A stretch of 64,000 nt of DNA from Terriglobales bacterium (GTDB lineage Bacteria; Acidobacteriota; Terriglobia; Terriglobales; Acidobacteriaceae): the NCBI GenBank assembly GCA_035691485.1, contig DASSIZ010000033.1:1-64000 (forward strand), read 5' to 3'. Every line of letters begins with the position of its first letter. Position 1 is the stretch's first letter. Of the stretch, positions 3,432-21,782 are shown piece after piece. The translations under genes were made by a program, and so were the position numbers. The notes beneath the pieces are model-generated. The model searched no databases, had not been told where the DNA came from, and saw only the letters and a program-made list of their open reading frames with translations.

Positions 3432-3782
3432 TCACTTTTTCAATTGATGAACATAGGCTGCGAGTTCGTTTACCTGGTCAGCCGTAATCTTGCCTTCGAA
3501 CGCGGGCATTTTGTTCTTGCCCTTTGCAATCGCAGTCCCGAGCTCTGCTTTGGTTTTCTTCTGGATTTCAGGTGCGCGCAGGTCCGGAATGTTGAACTTC
3601 TTGCCCATGGTCGTATTGCCGCTCGCATCCGCGCCGTGACACATGGCGCACTTAGTCTTGAAGGTGGCCGGGGCGTCCTGGGCAGACACGGTGATCGACA
3701 AACCAAGCACAAAAATCGCGGTGAAAATTATTACCAACAACTTTGGACCGACAGTCGAGTTGCGGCGTTCGGCATTACTCAT
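3432..3782 (-). CDS. Small monohaem c-type cytochrome
   Basis: A 116-residue protein. The ATG at 3780-3782 is preferred (GAAGGAG upstream, seven-base gap) over a start 18 bases earlier. An N-terminal hydrophobic helix (LLVIIFTAIFVLGLSITVSAQ) directs export. One haem site CAMCH follows, and a later Met (KMPAFEGKI) fits the distal ligand of class I cytochrome c. It is the last gene of the minus-strand cytochrome cluster, 21 bases after the MtrB-like porin gene. It could carry single electrons in the periplasm to or from the conduit. Confidence 0.85.
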   Translation of the reverse strand: MSNAERRNSTVGPKLLVIIFTAIFVLGLSITVSAQDAPATFKTKCAMCHGADASGNTTMGKKFNIPDLRAPEIQKKTKAELGTAIAKGKNKMPAFEGKITADQVNELAAYVHQLKK

Positions 3783-3803
3783 TACGTGCTCCTTCAACAA
3801 GCT

Positions 3804-6485
3804 CTAAAACGTGTAAATCAGAGAGAAGCTGGCGGCATGAACTCCGTAGCTTGGTAACTTTTCAACGGTGGGCAGATAATTCGTACCCGTTCCGTACTGC
3901 AATCCATCGTAGGCCCAATCCGTGGGCATGAGGCGCTGGAACATATACGACGTTCGGAACGACGTCGTTTTGCTGAGCGCGTACGTGACACTCGGCCGCA
4001 CCATCATTTCGTCGTTTCTTTGCACGGGGTAATCGGACGCGGAAATCAAAAAGACTGCGGGTGTTCCGGCGGAGAGGACGGGAGCCCCTGCGAGCGCCAG
4101 GGGATTGTTGACATAACTCCCGCCGCTGACCGCGGTATTGGTCCGTCCCCGGGTGAACATAACCTCCGCAGCAAGTTCGAACTTGCCGGAAATCAGGTTC
4201 TTTCTCCGGATTACGAAACCGATCGTATCGATCTTGTCACGATTGTCTTTTGACCAGTTCAGGCACGGATCTATCTTGGCGCTGGCGTTCTTGGCCGCGA
4301 CGGTAGTGAAGCAATCGCCGGCAACGAGGGTATCGCCGGCCCGGCCTTGAAAGGCCACGGCGCTGTTGCTGCCATAGGCATCGCCTGCGGTGAGAAAACG
4401 CTGGTCGTCGTAGGTGTAAAACAAATTTGCAACGAAGTTTTCACTCGCGGTGTACGTGAGATCGACACTTGCCTCCCAGCCGGTTCCCTTCTTCAAACCG
4501 TAGACCGAATGGAGGTAATCGTCATTGTTAAAGTCGCCCGTGCCCTGCAGCGAGAACTTCTGGGTCGCTTGCCACTCCACAGATGAGCGCACCTTGTGGC
4601 GATTGCGGTCAGCCACCATGTACCTTCTCATACCAGGCAGTTCGTTGATGTTGTTGCGGCTGCCATAGAGGGACTGGGGCACGATGTTGTCGTTCGGACT
4701 GAAGAGGGATGCATCGCCGGTCAGGGGTGTGCCTGGCATGCCTGCCACAGGACCGAACCCGGTCAGACCGGTCGCATTAAGGTACCCTAAAACGCTCGTC
4801 GTTGCCCCCGCGGGCACGACGTTTGCCATGGGTACCAATGCCAGGAAGGCGTTCTCGTCATAGTTCCCTCTGCGCCAGGAATAGGCATAGCCCAGTCTGG
4901 CGTTAAAATTGCCGACCATCTTGGTGCGCCACTCCCCACGCAGCGTGTGTTCATTGGTGGTGGGCACGTCGGCGCAGTTAATCCATGCGCCGGAGCAACT
5001 GCGGTCAATCTTCTGCCAGTCGTATCCGCTCTGCAGCCGTTGCTTCTTGGTCAGGGCATATTCACTTTGCACGTTAAGCTGGTTGGTCTGCTTGCTGTAG
5101 GCGCGGTTGTTATAAATGTTTGTATTGCTTCCCAGGGTTGTTGGCAGTCCATTGCGTCCGGCGAAGGGGGAGACGCTACTCTTTGATTCGTTTGCATCCT
5201 GGAATAAAAAGAGGTTAACCGGGGTCTGATTGTCACGGTTGTCGAATTTGTACGCTGCGCTGAGGTTCACCTTCTTGCCGGCTTTGGCGGTTAGCTTAGC
5301 GGTAACTGTGCCCGTCACGACCAGCCCGTCCAGTGACGCGGTCGGAAGGCCGAATGCCAACTGCCCATTGGACGCTGTTGAGGGGCCCAGAAACGCGTCA
5401 TTTTGACTGTTGCGCCCATACGTTCCGCTCACCACCAGTTTGGCGTGAGATGAAATCTTGTAGCCACCGGTCAAACTGAACTGGTGGGATTGGTTGCTCG
5501 GCATGCTCGACATGGTCGCAGTCTTGGTTGGATCGTTGATGTCTTGCCAAGTCATGGACTTGACGTTGTTGGTGAAGAACGAACCGTAATAAGCGAACGT
5601 CAACAGAAGTTTCTTGAGCTTGTAATTCACGCTGGCGTTGGCCTGTTGCGTGTCGTAGTCGATACGATCGGGAATGATGACCGCGTTCTCACTGACCTGC
5701 GAGGTAACAGCACCAAGTGCCTTGCTGCCCGACTTGTGTTCATGACGGAAGCTAATGGGGATGTCCCATTGTTCATTGGGGCTATAGCTGAACCCGGCAT
5801 CAAACCTGGTGCGCTTGGTGGCGAGATCGACATTGCTGAAGTCCGGGACGTCGTTGGCGCGAATGTTGGCGAGGGTGGCTAACTGGGCCGCAGTCGGCGC
5901 CGTCAGCACGCCGGCACTGTTGTAGACGCTTGCCGTTCCGGCGATCGGATCGAAGGCGCGGAAATTGACGCTGCTCGCGTTTTGCTGCGGCACTCTAGGC
6001 GCTAGCCAATTGGCGGGCAAGCTGAGGTTGTTGGAGCCTGCACCCAGAAACATCGTCTGGTTGGTGTCGGAGCGGTTGGCCAGCAGCTCGTCATAGCCGA
6101 AGCTGATCCGAAACTTCCCCTGGTGCCCGAACTCAGCGAGGAAATTGCGCGTTTCCAGGCCAATATTCGTGCCGCGGAGGCACCAGCGCCAGGTGCTGTC
6201 ACTGCTATAGGAGGCGCCGCCACGGAGATCGAAATTGCTCAGGCCAAATGGCCCTTGATTATGCAAACCGTTGTATTCGCCGAATTTGAAGGAGTTGTCG
6301 CTGACCACGCCAACTCCGGCTTCAACCCTTTTCTCCGGCGTGGTCTGGCTCGCTTCGGAATTTTGGGCAACCGCGTTGACCTGAAAACCGTCCAGCACGG
6401 CCAGCATCAGAACGATAGCGATGAGCGCGCCGCGCACAGCCCACACCGAACTGGTGCCGCGATCGTTTCTATGGTTAACCTTCAT
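3804..6485 (-). CDS. MtrB/PioB-family outer-membrane beta-barrel protein
   Basis: An 893-residue protein from the ATG at 6483-6485 (GGAAGGA upstream). The longer frame would overlap the preceding gene and bury the signal peptide. After the signal (ALIAIVLMLAVLDGFQVNAVAQ) come repeated amphipathic beta-strands rich in aromatic and Asn/Asp turns. An early EYNGLHNQGPFGLSNFDLRG segment and a C-terminus ending in Phe (SFSLIYTF) are typical of the MtrB/PioB family, which sheathes a decahaem cytochrome across the outer membrane. The decahaem gene lies 37 bases upstream, so the pair should form an MtrAB-type conduit. The CXXC often found near the N-terminus of Shewanella MtrB is not evident. Confidence 0.9.
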   Translation of the reverse strand: MKVNHRNDRGTSSVWAVRGALIAIVLMLAVLDGFQVNAVAQNSEASQTTPEKRVEAGVGVVSDNSFKFGEYNGLHNQGPFGLSNFDLRGGASYSSDSTWRWCLRGTNIGLETRNFLAEFGHQGKFRISFGYDELLANRSDTNQTMFLGAGSNNLSLPANWLAPRVPQQNASSVNFRAFDPIAGTASVYNSAGVLTAPTAAQLATLANIRANDVPDFSNVDLATKRTRFDAGFSYSPNEQWDIPISFRHEHKSGSKALGAVTSQVSENAVIIPDRIDYDTQQANASVNYKLKKLLLTFAYYGSFFTNNVKSMTWQDINDPTKTATMSSMPSNQSHQFSLTGGYKISSHAKLVVSGTYGRNSQNDAFLGPSTASNGQLAFGLPTASLDGLVVTGTVTAKLTAKAGKKVNLSAAYKFDNRDNQTPVNLFLFQDANESKSSVSPFAGRNGLPTTLGSNTNIYNNRAYSKQTNQLNVQSEYALTKKQRLQSGYDWQKIDRSCSGAWINCADVPTTNEHTLRGEWRTKMVGNFNARLGYAYSWRRGNYDENAFLALVPMANVVPAGATTSVLGYLNATGLTGFGPVAGMPGTPLTGDASLFSPNDNIVPQSLYGSRNNINELPGMRRYMVADRNRHKVRSSVEWQATQKFSLQGTGDFNNDDYLHSVYGLKKGTGWEASVDLTYTASENFVANLFYTYDDQRFLTAGDAYGSNSAVAFQGRAGDTLVAGDCFTTVAAKNASAKIDPCLNWSKDNRDKIDTIGFVIRRKNLISGKFELAAEVMFTRGRTNTAVSGGSYVNNPLALAGAPVLSAGTPAVFLISASDYPVQRNDEMMVRPSVTYALSKTTSFRTSYMFQRLMPTDWAYDGLQYGTGTNYLPTVEKLPSYGVHAASFSLIYTF

Positions 6486-6522
6486 GATTGCGTCATCCTT
6501 CCCCAGTTCAATATCGTTATCT

Positions 6523-7482
6523 TTATCTTTGGAATTTGGCGCCGGCCGGATGATTCGAGCCGTGAATCTGCGAGTGACAATTCGTGCAACCCCGGGTATT
6601 CCCTTGGGCAGGCGGGCTCTGGCTGGCCAGGGGCAGCCGGCCATTGGCGGTGGTTACAGCCCCGCCAGGCAGATTTGCACCACTGTAGAGATTTTTTCCG
6701 TGATCTCCGCTATGGCAGCTTTGACAAATCATCGGCGACCGCATCTTCAACAAACTCCCCAAGTTTGAGCCGTGGGGGGTGTGGCAATTCGTACAGTCGT
6801 CGACAACGGGGGCGTGCTCCCAGAGGAAGGGGCCCCGCTTTTCCGCATGACACGTGTAGCAGGTCTCGTTAACCGAGTTCTTTACCAGCAGCGTTGGACC
6901 GTTTGAGCCGTGCGGATTGTGGCAGTCGGAACATGTCACTTTGCCCTCCAGGATCGGGTGCCTCGAGAAGCGCTGAATCTGCGCCCGCTGGGCTTTGTGG
7001 CAAGCAAAGCAGACTTGGGACTGCGTTAGTTTGCTCAACACCCTCTGGGTGGGGGCGTGTATCTCATGGCAATCGTTGCACGCTACGCCACGGGTTTCAT
7101 GCTGGCTGCCCGACCAATTCGTCCGGGGAAGAATGCGCGACTCGTGGCAGCTAAGACAGGCTTCGTTTCTCTTCTCCGCGGGCGATAATCTCTTCGACTT
7201 GGCTTCGAAAACGAACTCCGGCGACTTGTTCCCTGGATCCTCTCTATGTTCGAGGCTCTCGCCGTGGCAGGACTGGCACCCGGGCGTGCGCTTATCGGCC
7301 TTGACCCCGTGCCGGGTCTGGTAAATGGAAAGTACCGGCGGTTTCCAGTCTGCATCGTGGCAGACGGTACAATTCTTATCCCCTTCAAGGGACCGGTCCA
7401 CCACTGCTGCCGTCAACGGTACGAACCCGAGAAGACCCAGGGCGAGCGCGCACGGCGCAAGGAAACCACGCGGGATTCTCAT
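6523..7482 (-). CDS. Decahaem c-type cytochrome, DmsE/MtrA family
   Basis: A 319-residue protein. The ATG at 7480-7482 has GGAGA four bases upstream. A signal peptide (FLAPCALALGLLGFVPLTAA) is followed by exactly ten CXXCH sites: CTVCH, CQSCH, CLSCH, CNDCH, CFACH, CSDCH, CYTCH, CTNCH, CQSCH and CTNCH. Length and haem number match the periplasmic decahaem cytochromes that plug MtrB-type barrels. Paired with the adjacent porin gene it should pass electrons through the outer membrane. A candidate sigma-54 promoter lies ~38 bases upstream in a 243-base gap, so it may begin its own transcription unit. Confidence 0.93.
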   Translation of the reverse strand: MRIPRGFLAPCALALGLLGFVPLTAAVVDRSLEGDKNCTVCHDADWKPPVLSIYQTRHGVKADKRTPGCQSCHGESLEHREDPGNKSPEFVFEAKSKRLSPAEKRNEACLSCHESRILPRTNWSGSQHETRGVACNDCHEIHAPTQRVLSKLTQSQVCFACHKAQRAQIQRFSRHPILEGKVTCSDCHNPHGSNGPTLLVKNSVNETCYTCHAEKRGPFLWEHAPVVDDCTNCHTPHGSNLGSLLKMRSPMICQSCHSGDHGKNLYSGANLPGGAVTTANGRLPLASQSPPAQGNTRGCTNCHSQIHGSNHPAGAKFQR

Positions 7483-7519
7483 GCTATCTCCATATATCGG
7501 GTGTTCCAGCCGCTAACTT

Positions 7520-7534
7520 GCACCTGCGCTGCCA
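7520..7534 (-). promoter_or_regulatory. Candidate sigma-54 (-24/-12) promoter
   Basis: On the minus strand TGGCAGCGCAGGTGC has GG and GC separated by ten bases and matches TGGCAC-N5-TTGC at 8 of 10 positions. The next base is A, also as in the consensus. Transcription would begin about 26 bases before the decahaem cytochrome ATG, leaving room for its Shine-Dalgarno site. A sigma-54 activator gene belongs to the same locus (15367-16773). This is a pattern match only. Confidence 0.45.
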
Positions 7535-7634
7535 CTCACCATGCCGGCTGAGGAAAAAATCAACAGGAATCGTGCTGAGAAATCTGCAATTAGGCAAGAA
7601 CCCGAGGATATCTCGGCAATACGGCCACGGCGTC

Positions 7635-7661
7635 GTGTCCGATTTTGCTACTTGTGTCCGA
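7635..7661. promoter_or_regulatory. Direct repeat, possible activator-binding site
   Basis: GTGTCCGA occurs at 7635-7642 and again at 7654-7661, 19 bases apart start to start, about 100-140 bases upstream of the candidate sigma-54 promoter. An imperfect palindrome (CACG-N4-CGTG) overlaps its left edge. Position and spacing fit an upstream activator site; no binding evidence exists. Confidence 0.3.
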
Positions 7662-7725
7662 AATTCGTACCGGCGAATGCTTGCGAATTTGTGGGTCAAG
7701 AATTCGCGTGTCAGCGATAGGACAT

Positions 7726-9072
7726 TCACGCCGAGGGGACGACGTCGCTGGGAAAGTACGATTGCACGCGCAAGACAACTTCGGGAACGGCCATTTCACG
7801 ACCTTCCCGCACTTCCCAGATGGAGACTATCGGAAAGAATTTCGTGAACAGCATATACAGGAACATGAAGGTGGCGCCGAACCCGATGGTGATGGCGACC
7901 TCCACCCATGTGGGCGAGTAGGTGGCTTTCGCCCACGGCAGCCGTGGCTGCGACAGGGTCGGCACCACGATGGTGAACCGCTCCAGCCACATACCGATGT
8001 TGACGGAGATCGAAGCAATCACGCATCCCGTGATGGTGCGCGTTTTCCGGCGGGCAAGAATGCCGACCGGGATGATGAAGCACGTCACCACCATGGTCCA
8101 GAAGGGCACGGCGTAGCGCCCGTTGAGCTTGGAATAGAAGACCACCAGATGGCTGGGATCGCTGCCGTAAAACGTGGTGATGAATTCTGCAAATGTGAAG
8201 TAGAACCACAGCAGGGCCATCACCAGCAACAGCAGCCCGAGATTGTTGAAGTGGATTGGCTTGAGGTAGTCCTGCAGCATATAGATCTTCCTGATGAGCG
8301 CCATCACGATCAGCAAGGAAGCGATGCCGGAGAAGATCGCGCCCACCACGAAGTACGGACCGAAGATGCTGGAGTGCCACATCGGCTGGACGGTCATGGC
8401 GAACACCCAGGACACCACCGTGTGCACCGAAATCGCGATCGGGATCACCAGCACAGCCATCACCGAGATGGCGCGGTTGAGCAATCGTTTCTGCTTCTCA
8501 CTCGCGCACCATCCAACCCCGAGCAGGCGATAGAGCCACGCCGGCTTGGCGCCGCAATCGCGCAGGATGGCAATGTCAGGTATGAGCGGCAGAAACAGGT
8601 AAATCGTGCTGGCAGTCAGGTAGACGCTGATGCTGCACACGTCCCACAGCAGCGGCGAGTGGAAGTTTGGATGGAGCAGCACGTTCAGCGCGCGCTCCGG
8701 ACGTCCCAGGTCCATGATCACGCTGCCGACACCGAAAAACAGCACCAGCACGGTGATCACTTCGGCAGCGCGGGTTATGGAGCGTCGCCATTCTGCGTGG
8801 CACAGGCGGAGGATGGCCGAGATGAGCGTGCCCGCGTGGCTGATGCCGATGAAGAATACGAAGTTGGTGATGTAAAAGCCCCAATACACCGGCACGTTCA
8901 GGCCAGTCACGCCCAAGCCCCGGCTTAACTGGTGCATCCAGGCGAAAAAGGCGATCGTGGTGAACCCAAGAAAGACCAAGGCCAGGTAGTAAAAGGGCCT
9001 GCGGGTCGCGATCACGGGTTGCAACAGCACCGAGTCCTGTTCGTTATGTGCGTGGTCCTTGCCCGTCTCCAC
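7726..9072 (-). CDS. NrfD/ActC-family quinone-interacting membrane subunit
   Basis: A 448-residue protein from a GTG at 9070-9072 with AGGAG nine bases upstream, overlapping the end of the Fe-S gene by 29 bases. About ten transmembrane helices are visible. Segments such as ISHAGTLISAILRL and SPLLWDVCSISVYL...LIPDIAILRD resemble ActC of alternative complex III and QrcD more than small PsrC/NrfD proteins. These subunits bind menaquinol or ubiquinol at the membrane and pass electrons to the periplasmic Fe-S subunit. Gene order Mo-subunit, Fe-S, NrfD is that of this superfamily. The direction of electron flow cannot be told from sequence. Confidence 0.9.
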   Translation of the reverse strand: METGKDHAHNEQDSVLLQPVIATRRPFYYLALVFLGFTTIAFFAWMHQLSRGLGVTGLNVPVYWGFYITNFVFFIGISHAGTLISAILRLCHAEWRRSITRAAEVITVLVLFFGVGSVIMDLGRPERALNVLLHPNFHSPLLWDVCSISVYLTASTIYLFLPLIPDIAILRDCGAKPAWLYRLLGVGWCASEKQKRLLNRAISVMAVLVIPIAISVHTVVSWVFAMTVQPMWHSSIFGPYFVVGAIFSGIASLLIVMALIRKIYMLQDYLKPIHFNNLGLLLLVMALLWFYFTFAEFITTFYGSDPSHLVVFYSKLNGRYAVPFWTMVVTCFIIPVGILARRKTRTITGCVIASISVNIGMWLERFTIVVPTLSQPRLPWAKATYSPTWVEVAITIGFGATFMFLYMLFTKFFPIVSIWEVREGREMAVPEVVLRVQSYFPSDVVPSA

Positions 9073-9760
9073 CGCTCCACTCTCCTTGCGCCAGATAAAT
9101 CACCTTGGGATGAGTCCCGAGTTCTTCCAGGGGTTTGAAAGCACGCCTGCTGCGGGCCAATGTGGATACCGTCGAGTTATGGTCCTCGAGATCGCCGAAG
9201 TACATGGCCCCCGCGGGACAGATCTCGACGCACGCCGGAACATAGTCGCCCTCCACCAATTCCCGTTTCGCGGCGCGTGCCTCGTCGCGGGCCTTTTGCA
9301 GCCGGTGATGGCAGAGCGTGCACTTTTCCACCACGCCCTTCGGCCTCACCGAAACGTCGGGATTCAGCGCTTCAGCAAACTCCCCGGGAAACTCGGGTTT
9401 GTACCAATTAAACATGCGCCGCGTGTACGGGCACGCATTGGTGCAGTACCTGCAGCCGATGCATCGGGCGTAAATCTGCCGCACCACGCCTTCCGGGTTG
9501 ATCGCGGTTGCCTGTACCGGGCAAACGCGAATGCAGGGCGGGTTATCACAGTGGACGCACGGCAGCGGCGTCGGCCGCATGCTCAGCCGGGGGTATTCGC
9601 CCTCTACCTGCGGCAGCACGCTGATCCACGAAATCACGCGCCCGCGCTCTGCCTCCTTCGGCGGCACGCAGGAAACATTGTTCTCTGTCTGGCAGGCGAC
9701 CGTACAGGCCTGGCAGGCTGTGCACTTCGCGAGATCAATCACCATCCCCCAACGCGGCAT
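9044..9760 (-). CDS. Four-cluster ferredoxin-type Fe-S subunit
   Basis: A 238-residue protein. The ATG at 9758-9760 (AAAGGA upstream) starts directly before the first cluster motif, MVIDLAKCTACQACTVAC; the longer frame is antisense-like padding. Four [4Fe-4S] motifs follow: CTACQACTVAC, CVHCDNPPCIRVCP, CIGCRYCTNACP, and CTLC with CVEICP. This is the electron-transfer subunit of the DMSO-reductase/PsrB/ActB family. It lacks its own signal peptide, so it probably rides across the membrane with the Tat-exported large subunit encoded 13 bases upstream. In alternative complex III the two are fused; here they are separate. Confidence 0.92.
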   Translation of the reverse strand: MPRWGMVIDLAKCTACQACTVACQTENNVSCVPPKEAERGRVISWISVLPQVEGEYPRLSMRPTPLPCVHCDNPPCIRVCPVQATAINPEGVVRQIYARCIGCRYCTNACPYTRRMFNWYKPEFPGEFAEALNPDVSVRPKGVVEKCTLCHHRLQKARDEARAAKRELVEGDYVPACVEICPAGAMYFGDLEDHNSTVSTLARSRRAFKPLEELGTHPKVIYLAQGEWSGGDGQGPRT

Positions 9761-9773
9761 GCGGCATCCTTTG

Positions 9774-12152
9774 TTATGCGCGATAGACCTTGACGTATGT
9801 CCCATGGGCCGATGGCAGGCCCGTGGCCAGGTCAGCCTGCTCCTCGACGATTTCCAGCGGATTGGCGCCGCGGCACGCCCATTCGCCCCCTGACTTGTGC
9901 CCGTAACCAAGCGGCAGGTGCACCACCCCGGGCCGCGCGCCTTCATAAAAACGAGCCTGCGCCTGAACGCGTCCGCGGCGCGATTCAATCCACACCGAGT
10001 CCCCATCGCCAATGCCGAAGGTCCGCGCCGTCTCCGGGTGAATCTCCAGCCAGCTACCCCACTTGGCGAATACGTGCACGCCGGCGATCTGCTCCAGGTA
10101 GGGCAGGTGCGCGCCCTCTCCGCCGGCAAGCGGAAGTTGCTCGACCGGCATCAGCAACAACGGGAAGTTGGTGGTCGCTTCCGGAATCGTTGGCTGGTGC
10201 GGCAGGCATTCCCGGTCGTCGATCCTTGCCGTGCCTCGCCGCTGCTTTGCCGCGTCGGCCAGCGCCTGCGAATAGAATTCGAACCGCCCGGACTTGGTGC
10301 GCAACACGCGGCTCCATTCGCCATGGGAATACGCCGGCTCCCACCACCCGCCTTGCTTCTTCATCTGCTGCCACAGCTCATCGGCATTCGTGTAGCTCGG
10401 CGCCCACCACCCCGAGCGTTCCATCAGCCGGTTCCAACTGTCTTCCAGTGTGGAGCCGAACACGGCGCCGGACTGCGCCGCGTACAGGCCGTCAACTTCG
10501 CTGCGTAAAAACTCTTCGTAACCGGCGAACGGCAGCGCCGCCGCGACCGGTCCTCCCAGCGATCCCGCGGCCTTGAGCATCACGTCGCCCGGGTGACGGA
10601 CATCTTTGCGCGGGCGAACCGCCGGCGGTGAGATTGAGACCATCGCGTGGGCCACCGTCGGCGGTGTTCCGCCGTCCTGCCACGATTCCAGTCCCGTCGG
10701 CGCCGGGATCACCAGATCGGCGAGCGTGGCGCTGTCGTCGAGGAATGGACTGAAGCTGACGATGAACGGGATATCTTTCATCGAGCTTCGGAACGCAGCG
10801 CCGTTGGGAAGCGCGAAAACCGGGTTGACCTGATTCAGCAACAGCATCTGCACCGGATACGGCCGCTTCGACGCGATGGCCTGCGGCAACTCGCCGGCAT
10901 GCGCAACGTGTGCTTCCGCCGGCGGCAGGAGCGGGTCCTTGACATTCGAGACTCGGGTCTGTCCGGGCAACGGCTGCTGGACCAGCACGCCACCGGGAAC
11001 GTCAATACTTCCCAGCAGCCCATTGAGCGAGTGCGCCGCCATCGCTGCGTACACGTTGCCCGGCAGCGAGCTGTTATGCCGGTCGCCAATGGCGAGCACG
11101 GGACGGTTCTGCGCGGCTTCGCGCGCCAGCCGCAGGATGGTGTCGGCCGGAACGCCGGTCACGGTGGCCGCATCGTTCAGCCGATACTCGGATTTCACCA
11201 GCGACTTGAATCCGGTGTGGAAGTTGCCTTCGGCGTCCCGCCAGTCTTCGAATCCGTAGGTGTGATCGCGGACAAAGTCGGCGTCGTACAGTCCCTCGGA
11301 AATCAGCACGTAGGCCATTCCCAGGGCAAGCGTGGCTTCGGTGCCGGGACGAATCGGCACCCATTCATCGGCGCGAGCTGCAGTCATGGAAAGCCGCGGC
11401 TCGATTTGCACAAACTTTGCCCTGCGCCCTGAAGTGAGATCGCGCCACCGCGAAAACGCGCGCATCATCGCCACCGGCGCGCCCCAGCCCTCCAGCAGGT
11501 TGACGCCGAAACTCAGCACATAACCTGCATTGGCGAAGTCGTACGCCACCGGTTCACGGATGCCCTGTTGTGCGTAAACCGCGGCTTGGAGCGCGTCGAT
11601 CCCGCTGGGCATCATGACGTAATTGGGCGAGCCGTAGGCCGATAAGAACCGGGTCAGCAGGCGCGGCAGCAAGCCTCGCCTTGCGCGATCGACCACAACC
11701 AAGGACCGCGCCTCGCCCGCATCGCGCAGTTTGCGCAGGCGATCCGTCAACAGGCCCGCGGCTTCATCCGACGAAATTTCTTTCCATCGCGGATTGTCAC
11801 GCGTGCCGGTGTTGTGCACTGCCTTTCGCAACCGGTCCGGATGATACAACTCCTGCAATCCGGCCAGTCCCTTGGGGCACAGTCCGCCACGATTTACAGG
11901 GTGAAGCGGGTTTCCCTGGATTTTGACCGCACGATTGCCGATCAAGCGCACGCGCAGGCCGCATCCCCCGGGACACATGTTGCAAACTCCCGTCGCCCAC
12001 GATTCCGGACCGGAAGGAACCCTCACCAGTTCGCTGCTCAGCGCGGCATTGAGCGTGCTGATGCCCTGCAGGCTCACGCCCGACGCCGCCAAGCCAACCG
12101 CGCCGCCGGCTGCGAATCGCAAGAAGTTCCTGCGATCGAAAGTGAAGCTCAT
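9774..12152 (-). CDS. Molybdopterin-family oxidoreductase large subunit (ActB1/QrcB-like)
   Basis: A 792-residue protein. The ATG at 12150-12152 overlaps the upstream stop as ATGA. A twin-arginine signal (DRRNFLRFAAGG, residues 6-17) marks folded export to the periplasm. A [4Fe-4S] site has Cys57, Cys60, Cys64 and Cys92 (CNMCPGGCG...LCPKG). The remaining domains follow the bis-MGD enzyme fold, including a C-terminal molybdopterin dinucleotide domain. In the region that usually carries the Cys or Sec Mo ligand (GSPNYVMMPSGID) there is no Cys. It may therefore be a structural, Mo-free subunit as in Qrc and alternative complex III, or use Ser/Asp. Confidence 0.9.
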   Translation of the reverse strand: MSFTFDRRNFLRFAAGGAVGLAASGVSLQGISTLNAALSSELVRVPSGPESWATGVCNMCPGGCGLRVRLIGNRAVKIQGNPLHPVNRGGLCPKGLAGLQELYHPDRLRKAVHNTGTRDNPRWKEISSDEAAGLLTDRLRKLRDAGEARSLVVVDRARRGLLPRLLTRFLSAYGSPNYVMMPSGIDALQAAVYAQQGIREPVAYDFANAGYVLSFGVNLLEGWGAPVAMMRAFSRWRDLTSGRRAKFVQIEPRLSMTAARADEWVPIRPGTEATLALGMAYVLISEGLYDADFVRDHTYGFEDWRDAEGNFHTGFKSLVKSEYRLNDAATVTGVPADTILRLAREAAQNRPVLAIGDRHNSSLPGNVYAAMAAHSLNGLLGSIDVPGGVLVQQPLPGQTRVSNVKDPLLPPAEAHVAHAGELPQAIASKRPYPVQMLLLNQVNPVFALPNGAAFRSSMKDIPFIVSFSPFLDDSATLADLVIPAPTGLESWQDGGTPPTVAHAMVSISPPAVRPRKDVRHPGDVMLKAAGSLGGPVAAALPFAGYEEFLRSEVDGLYAAQSGAVFGSTLEDSWNRLMERSGWWAPSYTNADELWQQMKKQGGWWEPAYSHGEWSRVLRTKSGRFEFYSQALADAAKQRRGTARIDDRECLPHQPTIPEATTNFPLLLMPVEQLPLAGGEGAHLPYLEQIAGVHVFAKWGSWLEIHPETARTFGIGDGDSVWIESRRGRVQAQARFYEGARPGVVHLPLGYGHKSGGEWACRGANPLEIVEEQADLATGLPSAHGTYVKVYRA

Positions 12153-13372
12153 TGCCGTCCCCCCGAGTTGTGCCCGTGCGCCGGTTTGGAACCGAGGAAC
12201 TCCAGCAAGTCCACCACTTCGCCCGGCTGGAATCTCGGCCACGCGATCTGCTGCTGTTGCATGCTCTGAAACATCACCGGGCCGTGGTTCCACAGGGATG
12301 TCGCAATGTGGATCGGTGAAACCGAGGCGCCGACGAGGTCAGGCCCCGCGCCGCCGCTGCGATGGCACGACGCGCAGCCTTTCGACTCGAACAATCTGGC
12401 GCCCTGCGCCGCACTGCCAGCCGGCTCGAAATATCGCTCGGCAAACAGGTACGAGATCAGGTCCGCCATTTCTTTGTTGGTGAACTGTGGCCGGGCAATG
12501 TTCTGCGCCTGCATGCTGGCCCGCATCGCCGGCGCGTGATTCCACATGTCCGCGGCGAACTGGCCCAGCGTGCGTGGCAGTGCCCGCGAGCGAAGATCGG
12601 GCGCCGTGCGGCTGCCGTGCCCCACGGCGTGACAGGCAGCGCATCCCTTCTCGCGAAAGATCTTGCGTCCGGCTTCGGGATCCGCGGGACGGAGGTAGGT
12701 TGGCTTCGCCGCGTTGGGCGCCGATTGCCGGATATAGGCGATGATGTCGGGAACATCGTTGCCGTCGAAGACCGGCCACTTCACGCCGCGCGCCGCCATG
12801 ACGGATTGCATGGCCGGCGCATGATTCCACATCGCCTGGACCCAGCTCACCGGGTTGCGATACGCTGCCCACTTCAGCAGATCGGGCGCTTGCCGCTTCC
12901 CTTCCGCCCCCACGCCGTGACATTCCAGACATTTCTTTTCCTGCAGCAAGCGGCGACCGCGATCTTCGTTGCCGGGCTCATCGAGGGAGCGCACGGAATA
13001 AAGAAATGCGAACAGGTTCGCCATGTCGCTTTCGGCGAACTTCGGCGGAGCCACGCCCTCGATTCGCATCTTCTCCCACATTTCCGGGGCATGGTTCCAC
13101 ATGGCGGCCAGCAGTTCGGCGGAACTCAGGTGTCCGGCCGGAGCGCGCGCCAGGTCAGGAGCGCTGTGGCCTCCCTCGCCCAGTGCCGAGTGACAGCGTG
13201 CGCAGCCCTTATCGAAGAAGCTGCGCATGCCGGCCTTGGGATCGCCCGGGATGAAATATCCGCCTCCGCCCTGCGCCCTCAACGGCACGGCGATCATGAC
13301 GCAGGCGACGGCCATTGCCGCCACGGCAAGCAAGAGCACACACCACGATCGGCGATCAGCGATGACAGTCAT
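12149..13372 (-). CDS. Tetra-domain c-type cytochrome (second copy)
   Basis: A 407-residue protein with an N-terminal hydrophobic anchor (LLLAVAAMAVACVMIAV) and four tandem cytochrome c domains of about 90 residues. The haem sites are CARCH, CLECH, CAACH and CASCH. Each domain carries a [ML]WNH[AG]PxM motif about 35-45 residues after the haem site, then an aromatic LxxFLxS-type helix. The Met or His of that motif is a candidate distal haem ligand. It overlaps the pentahaem gene upstream by 17 bases and the large subunit downstream by four, so all are co-translated. It has the same architecture as the product of 13883-15115. Confidence 0.88.
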   Translation of the reverse strand: MTVIADRRSWCVLLLAVAAMAVACVMIAVPLRAQGGGGYFIPGDPKAGMRSFFDKGCARCHSALGEGGHSAPDLARAPAGHLSSAELLAAMWNHAPEMWEKMRIEGVAPPKFAESDMANLFAFLYSVRSLDEPGNEDRGRRLLQEKKCLECHGVGAEGKRQAPDLLKWAAYRNPVSWVQAMWNHAPAMQSVMAARGVKWPVFDGNDVPDIIAYIRQSAPNAAKPTYLRPADPEAGRKIFREKGCAACHAVGHGSRTAPDLRSRALPRTLGQFAADMWNHAPAMRASMQAQNIARPQFTNKEMADLISYLFAERYFEPAGSAAQGARLFESKGCASCHRSGGAGPDLVGASVSPIHIATSLWNHGPVMFQSMQQQQIAWPRFQPGEVVDLLEFLGSKPAHGHNSGGRQ

Positions 13373-13886
13373 TGCAATCCGCGTTAACTCGATGTTGTTG
13401 ATGGCAACCGATACAGGTCGCCATATTGAACACGCGAAACACGCGATCCGGCGGCTTGGACGCTTGTTCCATGGGGCCGTGACATTCGGCGCACGGCAGG
13501 TGGGCTACGGCGACGTGCCGGCGGTGCGAAAAGAACACGTGCGGCGCCGTTTGGGTCAACTGCACCCATTTCAATTCCTGGCCTGCCGCGGCGACGGTAC
13601 GCACCCGTTCTTCTTCCGCGCTGTTGGTGAGTGCTACCTGGTGACAGCCGATGCAAACATCAACCGATGGAAGGGTTGCCTTCGCCTGGGTTTGCACGCC
13701 GGCGTGGCAGTCCGCGCAAGCCACGCCGTTGCTCACGTGCTTGGAGTGGTTAAATGCGATCGGCTGTTTGCGAGCCGTGTGTTGTAAACCAACGAAGCCC
13801 GCTGTACCCAGGACGAAGAACAAGACAAAACCTCCGGCGGCGAACCGGGCGGCGCTCAGCAGCGATGGCGAACCGGGCAGCTTCAA
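13356..13886 (-). CDS. Pentahaem cytochrome, ActA/QrcA-like
   Basis: A 176-residue protein. The start codon is TTG at 13884-13886, overlapping the previous stop (TTGA). A membrane anchor (FAAGGFVLFFVLGTAGFVGL) precedes five CXXCH sites: CADCH, CIGCH, CAECH, CIGCH and CNDCH. FNHSKHV and FFSHRRHV supply extra His ligands in the pattern of cytochrome c7/ActA proteins. In alternative complex III, ActA takes electrons from the Fe-S arm and hands them to periplasmic carriers. Presence next to Mo-family, Fe-S and NrfD genes supports that role here. Confidence 0.88.
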   Translation of the reverse strand: MKLPGSPSLLSAARFAAGGFVLFFVLGTAGFVGLQHTARKQPIAFNHSKHVSNGVACADCHAGVQTQAKATLPSVDVCIGCHQVALTNSAEEERVRTVAAAGQELKWVQLTQTAPHVFFSHRRHVAVAHLPCAECHGPMEQASKPPDRVFRVFNMATCIGCHQQHRVNADCNDCHR

Positions 13887-15115
13887 TGGCGGCCCTCCTC
13901 GGGAGGCGAATTCAGAAACGCGAACAAGTCGCCGAGATCGTTTTCATTCAACTTCGGCCAGGCAATTCCGAGGCTCTGAGTTCGCCGGTACATTTCCGGC
14001 CCGTGCCGCCAGAGCGCCGTCGCCAGCGAAATCGAGTTCACTCGCTGGCCGCGCAGTCCTGGCCCAAGCGAAGTTCCCTCTCCGTTCGCTCCATGACATC
14101 GGCTGCAGCCGCGCGAGGCGAAAACCCCGCGTCCCGCCTTCTCTGAACCATTCGGTTCGAAATAGCGAAGACTGTTGAAGAACGCCATCAGGTCCGCCAT
14201 CTCCTGTCCGCTGAACGCTGGCCGCTGAATGCCACGGCTGTTCATTTCGCGGTACATCTGCGGAGAGTGGTTCCACATCGCGCCCGCAAATTCCACCATC
14301 GTCATCGGCGCCTCACGCCCGGCTCCGAGGTCAGGACCTATGTGACCACCCTCGCCTTGCACCGCGTGACATGCAATGCAGGATTTCGATTTGAAGAGTT
14401 GCCAGCCGTGCACAGGATCGGCGGGCAGGAGTTGGAACTCCGACCTTGGCGAACTGGAGACTTCGCGCACGTAGGCCAGCATGTCGCTCATTTCCGATTT
14501 GTCGAATCGCGGCCACGGCATTCCGATTTTTGGAAAGTTTTTCTCCATCTCGGGGGCGTGGTTCCACAGTGTCTGTGCCCACTGAATTGGAGTATCAACC
14601 CCTGAAATTTTCGCCAGGTCCGGACCGACGCTGCCGCCCTCCCCGTGGATGGCGTGGCATTGAATGCATCCCTTAATTTCAAACAGCCGGCGGCCCCTGG
14701 CAGCGTCGCCGGCTTCGTCCATATAGCGCGCCAGATACAGAAACGCGAACAGGTCGCTGACTTCGGACTGGCTCATGGACGAAGCGCGCAGGTTCTCCTG
14801 CTGCATCCGCTTCCACATCTCGGGCGCGTGGTTCCACATGGTCGTGACCAACTGGCCCAGATTGGCTCGCGACGTATTTCGTCCGGCGCCCAGATCCGGC
14901 GCGAGCTTTCCACCCGACCCATTGATCGCGTGACAATGCGAGCAGCGCTTCGATTGAAACAGCATCCCGCCCGCCACCGGATCGCCCGAAAGGAAGCTGA
15001 CGCTGCGCTGCGGCATGTGCTTCCGCTGCCACGCCAGCACGCCTGCAAGAATCGTCAGTGCAATCACCGCTGCTGCCAGCCAGACCACCGGTCGCCGCCG
15101 AAGATTCATCGTCAT
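13883..15115 (-). CDS. Tetra-domain c-type cytochrome (first gene of cluster)
   Basis: A 410-residue protein from the ATG at 15113-15115 (another in-frame ATG lies at 15107-15109; neither has a strong Shine-Dalgarno site). A single N-terminal helix (VVWLAAAVIALTILAGVLAW) anchors four tandem cytochrome c domains with CSHCH, CIQCH, CIACH and CSRCH. Motifs TMWNHAPEMW, TLWNHAPEME, AMWNHSPQMY and ALWRHGPEMY follow the haems in order. It is paralogous to the product of 12149-13372. It should face the periplasm and could form a multihaem wire between the quinone module and the outer-membrane decahaem protein. Confidence 0.87.
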   Translation of the reverse strand: MTMNLRRRPVVWLAAAVIALTILAGVLAWQRKHMPQRSVSFLSGDPVAGGMLFQSKRCSHCHAINGSGGKLAPDLGAGRNTSRANLGQLVTTMWNHAPEMWKRMQQENLRASSMSQSEVSDLFAFLYLARYMDEAGDAARGRRLFEIKGCIQCHAIHGEGGSVGPDLAKISGVDTPIQWAQTLWNHAPEMEKNFPKIGMPWPRFDKSEMSDMLAYVREVSSSPRSEFQLLPADPVHGWQLFKSKSCIACHAVQGEGGHIGPDLGAGREAPMTMVEFAGAMWNHSPQMYREMNSRGIQRPAFSGQEMADLMAFFNSLRYFEPNGSEKAGRGVFASRGCSRCHGANGEGTSLGPGLRGQRVNSISLATALWRHGPEMYRRTQSLGIAWPKLNENDLGDLFAFLNSPPEEGRH

Positions 15116-15366: not shown

Positions 15367-16773
15367 CTATTTATTGCTCTTGAAAGCGTTTTCATCCAAC
15401 TCGGGTTCCATTTCGCGCAATTTGCGATACAAGGTGTCGCGCGAGATGCCCAGCAGCGACGCCGTCTTGCGCCGGTTGCCGTGCGTAATCCGCAGCGCGC
15501 GCTGGATGGCCATGTGTTCCAGTTGTTCCAAACCGAGCGGCTGGTCCAAACCGCGGTCGCGCGGCTCTGGGACGGCGGAGGAACGAAGCAGCCGCGCCAA
15601 GTCCTTGTCGGTCACTCGCTGCGGGTCCTCGCGTGACACCGCGGTGGCTGCCTCCAGAAGATTTTCCAGTTCGCGCACATTGCCCGGAAACGGCTGCTCC
15701 AGCAGCAACTCCATCGCGCTGCGGCTGAGCACGATGTCGCGGTCATACCGTTCCGACAGCCCGCGCACGAAGTGTTGCGCCAGCACCAGGGTGTCCTCGG
15801 GCCGCGCACGCAGCGGTGGAATTTCGATGACCACGGTTGCAATCCGAAAATACAGATCTTCCCGCAGGCACTCCGAGCGCAGTTCACCGACTGCCCGGTT
15901 GGTCGCCGCGATGATCCGGACATCGACCGGAATGGATTTCGTGCTGCCCACCGGACGCAGTTCTTTCTCCTGCAGCACGCGAAGGATCTTGACCTGTGCA
16001 TCCTTCGGCATCTCGCCTACTTCGTCGAGGAACACGGTGCCGTGATGGCCGCTGACGAACAGGCCGGGGGCATCGGCGTAAGCGCCTGTGAATGCGCCAC
16101 GCCGAAAGCCGAACAACTCGCTCTCCACCAGCTCCCTTGGCAGCGCACCGCAATTCACGGCGACGAACGGCGACGCTGCCCGCTTGCTCGCGCCGTGGAT
16201 GGCGCGCGCCACCATCTCCTTGCCGGTGCCGGTTTCGCCCAGCAGCAGCACCGAGGCGTCGGATTGCGCCGCCGTACACGCCACTTCCACTACGCGCTGC
16301 ATCATCGGCGACACGAACACCAACGATTCAAAAGGCGTTGTGCTCTCGTCCACCTTGGCCTCGAGCTCCGCCACCCGGCCGCGCAGCTGCATCACCTCCA
16401 TCAGCCGGCCGACCTTCTTGCGCACGGTATCGGGATCGAGCGGCTTGGTAATGTAGTCCTCCGCGCCGCGCTTCACGGATTCGACCGCCGTCTCAATGGT
16501 CGCGAACCCGGTCATGATGATCACCGCCAGGTCGGGATCGTGCTGGCGCAGGCGGTCCATAAGCGTCAACCCGTCGCTGATCGGCATCAGCAGGTCCACC
16601 AATGCCAGGCAAAGATCGCGGGTCGACTGCTGCAGTTCCAGCGCTTCAGCCGCCGAAAGCGCCACTTCCACCGAGTATCCTTCCTGCTCCAGGAAGTGCC
16701 GCAGAGTATGGGCCAGGCTGGCGTCGTCATCCACGACGAGAATCGTGCCCTGTTTGCCGATGCAATGTTTCAT
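15367..16773 (-). CDS. NtrC-family sigma-54-dependent response regulator
   Basis: A 468-residue protein with three domains. The receiver is at 1-125 (acidic DDD at 15-17, phospho-acceptor Asp60, Lys110). The AAA+ sigma-54 activator domain spans about 150-385, with Walker A GETGTGKE (179-186), the sigma-54-contacting GAFTGA loop (226-231) and Walker B TVFLDE (246-251). A Fis-type helix-turn-helix lies at about 415-450 (HGNRRKTASLLGISRDTLYRKL). All activation motifs are intact. The ATG overlaps the kinase stop as ATGA, so the two form a pair. Being next to the cytochrome cluster, it is the likely activator of that cluster. Confidence 0.95.
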   Translation of the reverse strand: MKHCIGKQGTILVVDDDASLAHTLRHFLEQEGYSVEVALSAAEALELQQSTRDLCLALVDLLMPISDGLTLMDRLRQHDPDLAVIIMTGFATIETAVESVKRGAEDYITKPLDPDTVRKKVGRLMEVMQLRGRVAELEAKVDESTTPFESLVFVSPMMQRVVEVACTAAQSDASVLLLGETGTGKEMVARAIHGASKRAASPFVAVNCGALPRELVESELFGFRRGAFTGAYADAPGLFVSGHHGTVFLDEVGEMPKDAQVKILRVLQEKELRPVGSTKSIPVDVRIIAATNRAVGELRSECLREDLYFRIATVVIEIPPLRARPEDTLVLAQHFVRGLSERYDRDIVLSRSAMELLLEQPFPGNVRELENLLEAATAVSREDPQRVTDKDLARLLRSSAVPEPRDRGLDQPLGLEQLEHMAIQRALRITHGNRRKTASLLGISRDTLYRKLREMEPELDENAFKSNK

Positions 16774-18146
16774 CCGCGGGCTCCCAATACTGCCGCTTCG
16801 CTGTACACGGGTAAATTCACGATGGCCGTGGTCCCCTGGCGCGGGACGCTATCGAGGCGCACCGCGCCTCCGTGAGCCTGCAAGATGTTGCTGGCGATCG
16901 CTAAGCCCAGGCCGGTGCCGACGCCGGGCGCCTTGGTGGTAAAAAACGGTTCGAAGATGCGCGGCAGAGCTTCAGGATCGATGCCGCAGCCATTGTCAGC
17001 CACTCGCACCTCGATCGAATCCTGCCCCGTCCGCGTGCACGTCATCCTTATATTGCCCTCGGGGCCAACGGCATCCGCCGCATTGCTCAGCAGGATCAGG
17101 AACAGCGCCTCCAGTTGATTGCGGTCCCCCAGTACGCGCGTGCCGTCCACGCCGTCCAGGTCCAGCGTCAGCCGTACCCGCTTGGCCATCAGTTGTGGCG
17201 ACAGAAAGCTCGCTACTGCCTGCAGCGTCGCCGCAATCGATTCCGGCTGCTTTTGCCACGGCGAACTGCGGCTGAAGCGCAGCAGTTGCTGGACGAAGTG
17301 CTGGCAAAATACCATGCTTGTTTCCAGCCGTTCCAGGTCCGCGTTCAGATTGCCTTCGAACTTTCCCTCCCGCATCATGCGCATGCGAAGCAACATGGCC
17401 GCAAGCGGCGTATTCAGGTGGTGAGCGGTGCCGGCCGCCATCTGTCCCATGGTCGTAAGTTTCTCGATCTGCAGCAGAGTCTGGCGGAGGCGGACGCGCT
17501 CCCGAATGTCGTCGGTGATCTCAAGGAAATAGTTCTCGTTGGCGTTTTCCCGGAACGGCAGCAGGCTGACTTGCACTTCCAGCGGGCTGCCGCTCTTGGT
17601 CTGCCGCCGCGTTTCGACATCGAGCACCGGTTGGCCGCTCTCCACCTGTCGCATGAACGTCGCCAGCTCTGCCTTGCAATCTTCAGGCACCGTGGGCAGC
17701 ACTTCTCCCAGCAACTCCTCCTTGGAGTAGCCATAGAGCCGTTCCGCGGCCGCGTTACATTCCGAGATTCGCAATGCACTGTCCAGCAGCAGGATGGCGC
17801 TGGGCGAGCCATCCAGGATGGCGCGATAGCGCTCGCTGGAACGTCGCAAATGTTCTTCTTTTTCCTTCCGTTCCCGGAGGACAAACCATGCCGCCCAGAA
17901 CGCAAGGATTAGAGAGACTGCAATGCCGCGGCTGATGTAAAGGTAATGCAGCGTGACGTAGTCGAGATTGCGAAAGAAGTGATTCTCGAAAAGCTCCCAG
18001 ACCGCCAGCACGAGGGCGATGACGGTGATACTGGACAATGTCAGCGTTACCCAGAACCAATTGCGCTGCTGGGCAGGACGGCCCATCAGGGCTTCTCCCG
18101 ACGCCATGAGCGGCGTGTGCTGCATGGAACTGCGAACTTGTCTCAC
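16770..18146 (-). CDS. PAS-domain membrane sensor histidine kinase
   Basis: A 458-residue protein read from a GTG at 18144-18146; an ATG at 18125 is also possible. It has two transmembrane helices (about 31-50 and 74-90) with a short loop between them, a PAS domain (about 105-215) and a dimerisation helix with phospho-accepting His242 ([11 protein letters not shown]). The ATP-binding domain has N (LSNAADA), G1 (DNGCGI), F (FEPFFTT) and G2 (GTGLGLAI) boxes. The tiny sensor loop suggests that sensing is through the PAS domain or the membrane. It is the partner of the NtrC-type regulator, translationally coupled to it. Confidence 0.93.
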
Positions 18147-19052: not shown

Positions 19053-19331
19053 CTAAGATCCTGAACTGCAGAGTGTTGATTTCGAAGGGAACACGCCAAG
19101 GTTTCTGGCGATTTTCCCATTCGGCTGCAATCTCGTCGCGATGGTCAACACCGGCCGGCAAAAATTGGTTGTATAATTCTGTTCATCGAGCAGTGAGCGC
19201 CAGCCACAGAGGCAGTAGCCTTTGTTCCTGTTGGGCGCTCCGCTCATTTCAAAGCGGCTTCGCCCTTCGTCGACGAGAAAAACCAAAACTTCCAGGGCGT
19301 GCGAGCGCCCTGCTGGTCCGAGGAGTTGAGT

Positions 19332-21782
19332 GTGGACGAACTCACGCACTCGGCGGGTCGAAGCGTTCCAGTTGAGCATTCCGCGCACAAACCTGTCCCG
19401 GACAGCGACTGGCCCTTCCCGGCCGACCATGGACTTGGGCTGGTCTGCATTCATAGCTTGGATGGTCGACTGCTCTCGGTTAGTCCGGCGGCGGCTAAGG
19501 CCTTCGGTTACGAAGCCCAGGAGATGATTGAGCGGCCAATGCGCGATTTTCTTCCGCTCGATGTCCGCGACAATCTAGCCGTCTACTTAGACCGCATACG
19601 GCAAGACGGTACCGCATCAGGGCTAGTACGGGTCGTCACCAGGTCAGGTGATGAAAGAATTCTCGCGTATTCAAATGTATTACGGCAAGAGTCCGGCAAA
19701 CCTGCGTACGTTCTGGGTCATGCCGCCGACGTCACTGAAATCAAGAAAGCCGAACAACAACTCCGCGCGGCCGAGGAACGGTTTCGATCGCTGGTCCAGT
19801 GCAGTTCGGAGATTGTCGCGATCGCCACCCCCGAGGCGTCTATCGAGTACATCAGCGCTGCTGTCCAGCGCGTATTAGGATATTCGCCAGAGCAGGTCAT
19901 GGGGCAGAATATCTTCAACTACGTTCACAGCTCCGATGTACCAGCGGCGCAGAGTGCTTTTGCAGCAGCTCTCCAAAAATCTGGTTACGCAATGCCTGTC
20001 GAGATGCGCCTCCGCAACAGGGACGGGAGCTATGTTCATTGTGAAGTCGCAGCTACAAACCTGATCGACACGCCGGGCGTCGCCGGGGTTGTAATTACCG
20101 CGCGAGATCTTAGCATTCGAAAAACCGCTGAACGCAAATTTGAAGAATACAAACAAGAGTTCGAGCAACGAGATCGCAAGCGCTCCGCCGAGTTGACAGC
20201 CACAAACCGGATATTGGTAGCGGAGATCAGGGAAAGAGAGCGCACCGAAAAAGCGCTTCGCGAATCAAAATCGCTGCTTCAGGCGACATTGGAATCAACG
20301 GCAGACGGCATTCTGGTCGTTGACATGCAGGGCGGGTTCGCCAGCTACAACCGTCGATTTGTCGAAATGTGGGGCATTCCGGAACATGTCTTGAAATGGG
20401 GAAGGGACGAAGAATTATTGAACTACGTTCTGGGTGGACTCAGGACTCCTGCCGAATTTCTGGCCAAAGTCAGAGATCTTTATGAACATCCCGAGCAGTC
20501 CAGCTATGACGTGCTCGAGTTCAAAGATGGAAGAATGTTCGAACGCTACTCGCAACCGCAAAAGATCTCGGGAAAAATCGTCGGAAGGGTTTGGAGCTTT
20601 CGTGACATTACCGAACGAAAGCACTTGGAGGAACATCTGCGGCAAGCACAGAAGATGGAAGCGGTGGGGAGGCTTGCGGGCGGAGTAGCGCATGACTTCA
20701 ACAACCTTCTGATGGTAATTATGGGCCATTGTAGAGAACTGAATGCATGGGATGGCGTCGCTTCGGATGTTGCGAGGCACAGTATCGACCAGATATTTGC
20801 GGCGTCGGTGAGGGCTGCGTCGCTGACCAAGCAACTTTTGGCTTTCAGCCGAAGACAGGTTTTGTCACCACGCGTACTTGATGTGAACCTCGCTTTGGCC
20901 GGACTCTACCCCATGCTTCGCCGGCTGATAAGTGAAGATATTGAATTGCTGGTTACGCCATCTAAGTCGGCGGTATTTGTGAAGGCTGATCCCGCCCAGC
21001 TGGATCAAGTGATTGTCAACCTTGTCGTCAATGCACGGGATGCAATGCCGAAAGGCGGACGACTAACAGTGATCGCGTCCTCTGTAGATGTCAAGGATGC
21101 TTGCACGAGGGGAACTACATCTGTTCCACCAGGGAGCTATGTTCTTCTAACCGTCGCGGATACGGGCATCGGGATCAAGCAAGAAACACTGCCCCGGATT
21201 TTTGAGCCGTTTTTTACAACCAAAGAACCTGGACAAGGAACGGGACTCGGGCTGTCCACGGCCTACGGCATCATAAAACAGAGCCATGGTCATATATCGG
21301 TTGAGAGTGAATGCGCCCGCGGAACAAGATTTGAGATTTACTTGCCAAGACTCGACCCTCCATCCGTGGCTGCCCCCTCCATCTCCAATGTCACTGCCCA
21401 GGCCTGCGGCGGTTCGGAGACTATCTTGGTGGTTGAAGATGAGGAAGGGATTCGAATTCTTACAAAGGCATATCTCGAGCAGCAGGGTTATACGGTGCTG
21501 GCCGCGGCAAACGGAGTGGAAGCACTGGCACTCGTCCAAGCCTCTTCGGAGCCAATTCACTTACTACTTACGGACGTAATCATGCCCGGCATGAGAGGTA
21601 CGGAGTTGGCTCATCGTTTGTTGAAGGACAGACCGAGGACGCAAGTGCTCTACGTTTCTGGCTATCCGGAAGAAGAAATCGAGGATCCGGCCGCAGTTTT
21701 TCTCCAGAAGCCATTTCCCATGGAAGACTTGGGAGCGAAAATACGCGATCTGTTGGACAAGAGCCGCGCTTCGGCGGCTTAA
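19332..21782 (+). CDS. Multi-PAS hybrid histidine kinase
   Basis: An 816-residue soluble protein. GTG at 19332 is preferred because GAGGAG lies six bases upstream; an in-frame GTG at 19299 lacks this. It has three PAS domains (about 30-140, 155-270 and 310-420) joined by a coiled coil ([18 protein letters not shown]). A dimerisation helix with [11 protein letters not shown] follows (phospho-His in AHDFNN), then an ATPase domain ([24 protein letters not shown]) and a C-terminal receiver ([16 protein letters not shown]). The receiver may act as a phosphate sink or pass the phosphate on. No cognate regulator adjoins it. Confidence 0.93.

Follow-up and report, generated by a model that had tools for sequence, protein, structure and literature searches.

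A split alternative complex III core encoded beside an MtrAB-type outer-membrane conduit in a Terriglobales bacterium

Comparison with described systems

Alternative complex III (ACIII), the QrcABCD complex of sulfate reducers, and the porin-cytochrome conduits MtrAB, MtoAB, PioAB and DmsEF are the described systems closest to the gene cluster analyzed here, which lies in a stretch of 64,000 nucleotides (the window) from a Terriglobales bacterium (assembly GCA_035691485.1, contig DASSIZ010000033.1, positions 1 to 64,000 of the forward strand). Nine genes on the minus strand, between positions 3432 and 15115, encode a quinone module of the ACIII/Qrc class together with an MtrAB-type conduit. 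We consider it rather probable that they specify one dedicated trans-envelope chain, leading from quinol through cytochromes to the outer membrane, with outward as the favored direction of electron flow.

The structures of ACIII from Rhodothermus, Flavobacterium and Roseiflexus resemble this cluster in the pentahaem A subunit, the four-cluster Fe-S domain and the NrfD-family C subunit. Here, in contrast, subunit B is split into two genes, its part with the molybdopterin fold (Mo-fold) keeps four Fe-S cysteines, ActD, ActE and ActF are missing, and the linkage is to a conduit and not to an oxidase. With QrcABCD, the module shares the A-B-C-D layout, the split of B and C, and an apparently non-catalytic Mo-fold B, but all four subunits fall under the NCBIfam Qrc equivalog cut-offs (A, NF041781, 82 of 180 bits; B, 346 of 440; C, 279 of 400), with D the furthest below (48 of 570). 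For the Nitratidesulfovibrio Qrc, the B subunit is also said to hold no redox cofactors (PMC13059093), whereas that of the window keeps its Fe-S cysteines.

As in MtrAB, MtoAB, PioAB and DmsEF, a decahaem cytochrome is paired with the PF11854 barrel in which it would sit, both being above their family cut-offs; the quinone partner, however, is an ACIII-core complex instead of CymA, MtoC or a reaction centre, and there is no MtrC. DmsEFAB of Shewanella likewise encodes a DmsE/MtrB-type conduit with a protein of the complex iron-sulfur molybdoenzyme (CISM) fold, but its molybdoenzyme is an extracellular reductase, whereas here the Mo-fold protein is without the Mo-ligand Cys and is accompanied by an NrfD membrane subunit. 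CbcL and ImcH are the quinol oxidases of extracellular electron transfer (EET) in Geobacter; they provide a dedicated entry from quinone to EET, as we propose for the present module, although their membrane modules are not homologous to it. An Mtr-type conduit of Acidobacteriota, with a tetrahaem cytochrome nearby, is known as Group 5 MtrCAB, and Baker et al. (2022) described its loci without a nearby inner-membrane quinone oxidoreductase (PMC8805035), while here the oxidoreductase adjoins the conduit.

Zhong and Shi surveyed CymA, CbcL/MtoC/MtrH and ImcH only (PMC6295460). The accessible text of He et al. (PMC5566968) and of later studies on iron oxidizers reports organisms with both ACIII and MtoAB, and no cluster holding the two was found in it. 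No description of the present composition was found in the open literature searched; as far as that literature goes, the parts are each known and their combination is new.

The quinone module and the outer-membrane conduit

In the order of transcription, the genes encode a tetra-domain cytochrome (tetraC1), the pentahaem subunit A, a second tetra-domain cytochrome (tetraC2), the Mo-fold subunit B, the Fe-S subunit C and the NrfD-family subunit D, followed, after a gap of 243 bp, by a decahaem cytochrome of the MtrA/DmsE family, an MtrB/PioB barrel and a monohaem cytochrome. Across the five cytochromes, there are 4 + 5 + 4 + 10 + 1 = 24 CXXCH sites; the Fe-S protein has one more, which serves as an iron-sulfur ligand and is not part of this c-haem count. 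A preliminary description of the window had listed nine same-strand genes with 24 sites, and our coordinates and counts agree with it.

Subunit A, with its 5 CXXCH, matches the solved ActA chains with 65-72 bits, and subunit C matches the C-terminal Fe-S domain of ActB with 199 bits. Subunit D aligns with 6f0k_C over residues 30-423 (259 bits) and with 6btm_C (228 bits); its His79 and Asp144 are invariant in 40 homologues, and both have counterparts in the aligned ActC (GIGHAG, SPLLWDV). On these scores we class D as ActC-like and not QrcD-like, and the whole module as a split ACIII core that is laid out as in Qrc, with subunits A, C and D like those of ACIII, and with no ActD, ActE or ActF, none of which was recognized among the genes between 3432 and 18146. 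Both the ACIII/Qrc-like character of the module and the ActC/NrfD identity of D had been proposed in the preliminary description and are borne out by the family scores and the structure matches. The cluster has no fused ActB, its Mo-fold and Fe-S parts being separate genes. A canonical ACIII with a fused ActB is encoded elsewhere in the genome (contig C69), adjoining a haem-copper oxidase, and we therefore regard the module of the window as a second, separate system.

Subunit B carries a twin-arginine leader (RRNFLRF). Its closest solved structures are catalytic CISM proteins (ArrA, 187 bits), and it reaches only 56 bits against ActB. That the best solved relative is ArrA, and that dmsEFAB couples a molybdoenzyme to a decahaem of the DmsE/MtrA type and a barrel like MtrB, would suit a respiratory enzyme of the CISM class, with a particular substrate reduced at its molybdopterin subunit and MtrAB in its service. 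We consider this very improbable, because the best family model of B, by far, is the non-catalytic QrcB, and the Mo-ligating Cys of ArrA/PsrA is missing: the aligned position reads MPS-GID, with none of the protein ligands of Mo (Cys, Ser, Asp or Sec) at the conserved site, and Cys is found there in just 1 of 47 B homologues. A catalytic molybdoenzyme was rejected for B on the same ligand site. Since this Cys is lost while the four Fe-S cysteines are kept (the CX2CX3C...C motif is retained in 47 of 47 homologues), B is most likely an electron wire and not an enzyme; there is a small chance that a nearby Ser acts as a Mo ligand. From the preliminary view of B as an exported molybdopterin-family subunit, the leader and the fold stand, and the ligand site refines it to a non-catalytic protein.

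The decahaem cytochrome, with 10 CXXCH, scores 284 bits with the DmsE-family model TIGR03508 (cut-off 192), and its residues 31-319, the mature length, align with chain A of 6r2q with 231 bits, this chain being mislabelled in the PDB copy. The 6r2q entry is the MtrAB complex (PMC10654088). The adjoining barrel gene scores 411 bits with PF11854 (MtrB_PioB) and 394 bits with TIGR03509 (cut-off 240), and its profile matches chain B of 6r2q, so the MtrAB-type conduit of the preliminary description is upheld for both proteins. A NapC/NirT tetrahaem quinol dehydrogenase of the CymA type was not found in the cluster.

From this composition we infer how the complex would assemble and where its electrons would go. 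On the periplasmic face of the inner membrane, the ACIII-core complex A-D would trade electrons with menaquinone; the two four-haem cytochromes would be subunits of this complex or docking partners for it. These and the monohaem cytochrome would hand electrons to the MtrA-like decahaem, which would be held in the MtrB-like barrel and let them cross the outer membrane. In the outward direction, menaquinol would be oxidized inside, and the electrons would go to an acceptor outside the cell, for example Fe(III) or humics.

Recurrence of the coupling and exchange of quinone partners

A QrcB-like gene (E <= 1e-60) is present in 37 of the 297 genomes of a phylum sample, and an MtrB of this kind in 4 of 396 genomes and in 7 of 300 within the family. 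The congeners G121 and G510 have the same gene order as the window (G510 as far as its contig ends), with only 52 bp between the NrfD and mtrA genes of G121. Locus L098 (genome G654; Terriglobia STD1_3) has the order histidine kinase-response regulator-MtrA-MtrB-c554-tetraC-A-tetraC-B-C-D and holds all parts except the monohaem cytochrome, whose place is taken by a c554-type tetrahaem. In another family, G229 (locus L129) reads kinase-MtrA-MtrB-monohaem-monohaem-A-B-C-D, and L152 and L153 show the coupled parts in divergent arrangements. In G116, the quinone module has a different PF11854 pair next to it; in G148, its neighbors are two decahaems, one MtrC-like and one MtrA-like, and a barrel-like protein.

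The coupling of the quinone module and MtrAB is not an accident of one genome. The link between the two halves, as read in the preliminary description, recurs in congeners, in L098 and in a second acidobacterial clade, and homologous genomes do not always separate the halves. The synteny of all nine genes is a narrower matter: the composition recurs elsewhere in other orders, while the exact order is kept within the genus only. In G229, the NrfD subunit and a four-haem cytochrome c region form one protein of 949 aa (L060: 5094-7943, the same locus as L129), and this fusion points to direct contact of the two. In G121, a small deletion behind the haem site has apparently shifted the reading frame of the monohaem cytochrome gene (L064: 4292-4625).

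The QrcB tree has two halves, one of which carries the tetra-c cytochromes. In an unbiased survey, cytochromes with at least 8 CXXCH within 11 kb were found at 10 of the 18 loci in the tetra-c half, a count lowered by loci on short contigs, and at 0 of 24 in the other (Fisher p 3e-5; p 1e-4 with genera collapsed), and at 6 of 18 against 0 of 24 when a barrel was also required (p about 0.004, by hand), the p-values being rough as related loci are counted as independent.

In the MtrB tree, the Qrc-linked members fall into two acidobacterial subclades with proteobacterial members between them, and both subclades also include members with Rieske/cytochrome b neighbors (near kin L100, L103 and L105 in one; L121 in the other). 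The proteobacterial relatives are found beside NapC/CymA proteins (L108, L118, L120, L128) or beside Fe-S/NrfD proteins with a hexahaem cytochrome (L127, L130). On this tree, a quick one, the type of partner has to change nine times, or six with partnerless loci omitted, and no substrate-specific enzyme was recognized beside the same MtrB clade elsewhere. Because this clade lies beside other quinone modules, we interpret MtrAB, on the evidence of its gene neighborhoods, as a plug-in conduit that changes quinone partners and is here joined to an ACIII-core complex.

Rieske and cytochrome b genes adjoin the same MtrB clade in L097, L096/L103, L100 and L121, with cytochrome c fused to the b subunit in L096 and L097; this bc-type complex apparently serves the outer-membrane conduit. 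A Sterolibacterium contig (L125: 1175-12829) carries tandem MtrA/MtrB-type pairs.

Direction of electron flow, control and biological meaning

We favor the outward direction because no RuBisCO was found in the genome (98.5% completeness), because aerobic respiration has a separate ACIII and oxidases (the genome holds two haem-copper oxidases), and because a second MtrAB occurs with CbcL- and ImcH-like proteins. This second MtrAB spans C114:1-2890 and C89:1-8019, whose contig ends overlap by exactly 141 bp and rejoin one MtrB gene; its order is MtrA, MtrB, a 19-haem cytochrome, a CbcL-like protein (11 CXXCH plus cytochrome b561) and an ImcH-like protein (NapC), the last two resemblances being judged by domain make-up and not by a family test. 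A third MtrAB pair lies on C17, and C85 (L055: 3160-10175) encodes 28- and 23-CXXCH proteins beside an 835-aa protein without a Pfam match, in a PCC3-like layout. This predicted multihaem repertoire fits outward electron transfer.

Several observations weigh against a single outward chain. The surface decahaem MtrC is absent from the cluster, with no further multihaem gene alongside, and Qrc of sulfate reducers runs in the opposite sense, from cytochrome to menaquinone (PMC13059093). The two halves are parted in the window by the 243-bp gap, the module of the congener G073 runs directly into the monohaem gene with no such MtrB anywhere in that genome, and G265, a member of the family, carries the module and no MtrAB. 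The sigma-54 site of the window is only a weak 9/12 match, equalled by about 40% of shuffles. Since G073 and G265 carry the module without MtrAB, it also has another use. These two genomes and the gap agree with two independent neighbors, one a multi-partner periplasmic quinone:cytochrome c module and the other an MtrAB fed by a different quinol dehydrogenase (the CbcL/ImcH-like proteins of C89), as do G147 and G647, which carry this MtrAB with no recognized quinone module nearby (the contig of G647 starts 2.6 kb upstream). However, the coupling recurs in two MtrB subclades and in rearranged orders, and the junction of G121 is short, and we find such independence quite unlikely.

The same chain could also run inward, with electrons from outside the cell (given up by Fe(II), a conductive mineral or a partner cell) passing through MtrAB and the Qrc-like module to menaquinone, and with DsrMKJOP-dependent sulfite/sulfate reduction or oxygen respiration as the sink. 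In sulfate reducers, Qrc reduces menaquinone with electrons from cytochrome c3 (PMC13059093), a sulfate-reducing acidobacterium transcribed its qrcABCD genes in anoxic conditions (PMC10564751), ACIII genes are up during Fe(II) oxidation in Sideroxydans (PMC8788666), and MtoAB/PioAB, like this cluster, are without a surface cytochrome. The genome encodes DsrA, DsrB, DsrM, DsrK, DsrO and DsrP, all over NCBIfam cut-offs, on C107 (L194: 6314-15560), along with a possible DsrJ and a DsrL-like gene, and dsrA is present in all four genus members tested (the host genome and three congeners). Yet dsrA is absent from most other genomes with the coupled cluster (G229, G654, G655, G657), and Dsr is therefore not the general purpose of the cluster; as a general rule, the Qrc-like module as a Dsr accessory was rejected on the same finding. 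Also against inward flow, G073 carries both dsrA and the quinone module and yet lacks MtrAB, RuBisCO is missing, and subunit D is of the ActC type, from the quinol-oxidizing branch. We judge the inward direction unlikely. Its narrower form, restricted to the Dsr-bearing genus, in which electrons would pass through MtrAB, the four-haem cytochromes, an electrogenic ACIII/Qrc hybrid and menaquinone to sulfite reduction by DsrMKJOP, has a small chance of being right; if true, it would be an acidobacterial electron-uptake sulfate respiration with its envelope-to-quinone parts in one regulated cluster.

For the outward chain that we prefer, a two-component pair forms part of the gene cluster. The histidine kinase and response regulator genes (Table 1) overlap by 4 bases, lie just upstream of the nine genes and belong with them; their orthologues adjoin the same module in G121, G265, G098 and others. 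The preliminary description had not listed this pair. In L098, a perfect -24/-12 site (TGGCACGACACTTGCA) lies 67 bp before mtrA, downstream of the NtrC-type regulator, and at several other loci 11/12 sigma-54 sites lie before cluster genes, the overall rate being about 6e-5 per base. The cluster is probably under sigma-54 two-component control, which for the window we infer from the adjacent regulator. G121 has a 9/12 candidate at the corresponding position, which, like that of the window, is not significant; a loose sigma-54 pattern gave no more matches in the window than chance, and the sigma-70 and terminator scans of the window gave fewer sites than in shuffles.

Within the gap, an open reading frame at 7484-7729 was considered as a tenth gene and rejected, having no conserved counterpart in G121, G073 and G510; it is probably not a gene. 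An element GGTACGAATTTCGGACA-N-AATCGGACA (window 7655-7669) is common to the gaps after nrfD of G073 and G510 and is missing in G121. It was ruled out as a multi-copy insertion sequence, its core being single-copy in the genome.

Table 1. Coordinates of the cluster, its junction gap and the adjoining regulatory genes in the window.
Feature	Position	Strand	Domains and remarks
PAS-domain sensor histidine kinase, N-terminal transmembrane region	16770..18146	-	AtoS-like, 197 bits
NtrC-type sigma-54 response regulator	15367..16773	-	Response_reg, Sigma54_activat, HTH_8
tetraC1, tetra-domain class I cytochrome c	13883..15115	-	4 CXXCH; four Cytochrom_C domains
Pentahaem c7-type cytochrome (A), ActA/QrcA-like	13356..13886	-	Cytochrome_C7
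tetraC2, tetra-domain class I cytochrome c	12149..13372	-	4 CXXCH; four Cytochrom_C domains
Molybdopterin-family subunit (B), QrcB/ActB1-like	9774..12155	-	PF00384/PF01568/PF04879
Four-cluster Fe-S subunit (C), QrcC/ActB2-like	9044..9763	-	Fer4
NrfD-family membrane subunit (D), ActC-like	7726..9072	-	NrfD PF03916, 119 bits
Intergenic gap between the D and decahaem genes	7483..7725	-	243 bp
Decahaem periplasmic cytochrome, MtrA/DmsE family	6523..7482	-	TIGR03508
MtrB/PioB-family outer-membrane beta-barrel	3804..6488	-	PF11854, TIGR03509
Monohaem class I cytochrome c	3432..3800	-	start at ATG 3782

Start codons were refined for four genes, to ATG 12155 for the QrcB-like subunit, ATG 9763 for the Fe-S subunit, ATG 6488 for MtrB and ATG 3782 for the monohaem cytochrome. 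Beyond the two-component pair, the window encodes a hybrid PAS histidine kinase (19299-21782, plus strand) and then a large TPR-CHAT domain protein (21835-24813, minus strand).

Peat and soil are rich in Acidobacteriota, which are suspected of respiring iron and humics. The soil acidobacterium that bears this cluster probably respires some external substance, or takes energy from one, by an undescribed route, and the cluster supplies a candidate quinone entry point to acidobacterial Mtr conduits. Qrc is electrogenic, and as the module belongs to the ACIII/Qrc class, a cell that respires extracellularly in this way could gain energy already at the quinone step. The MtrAB pair occurs beside at least four unrelated quinone modules, and the matching of conduit and module is thereby testable by swapping parts.

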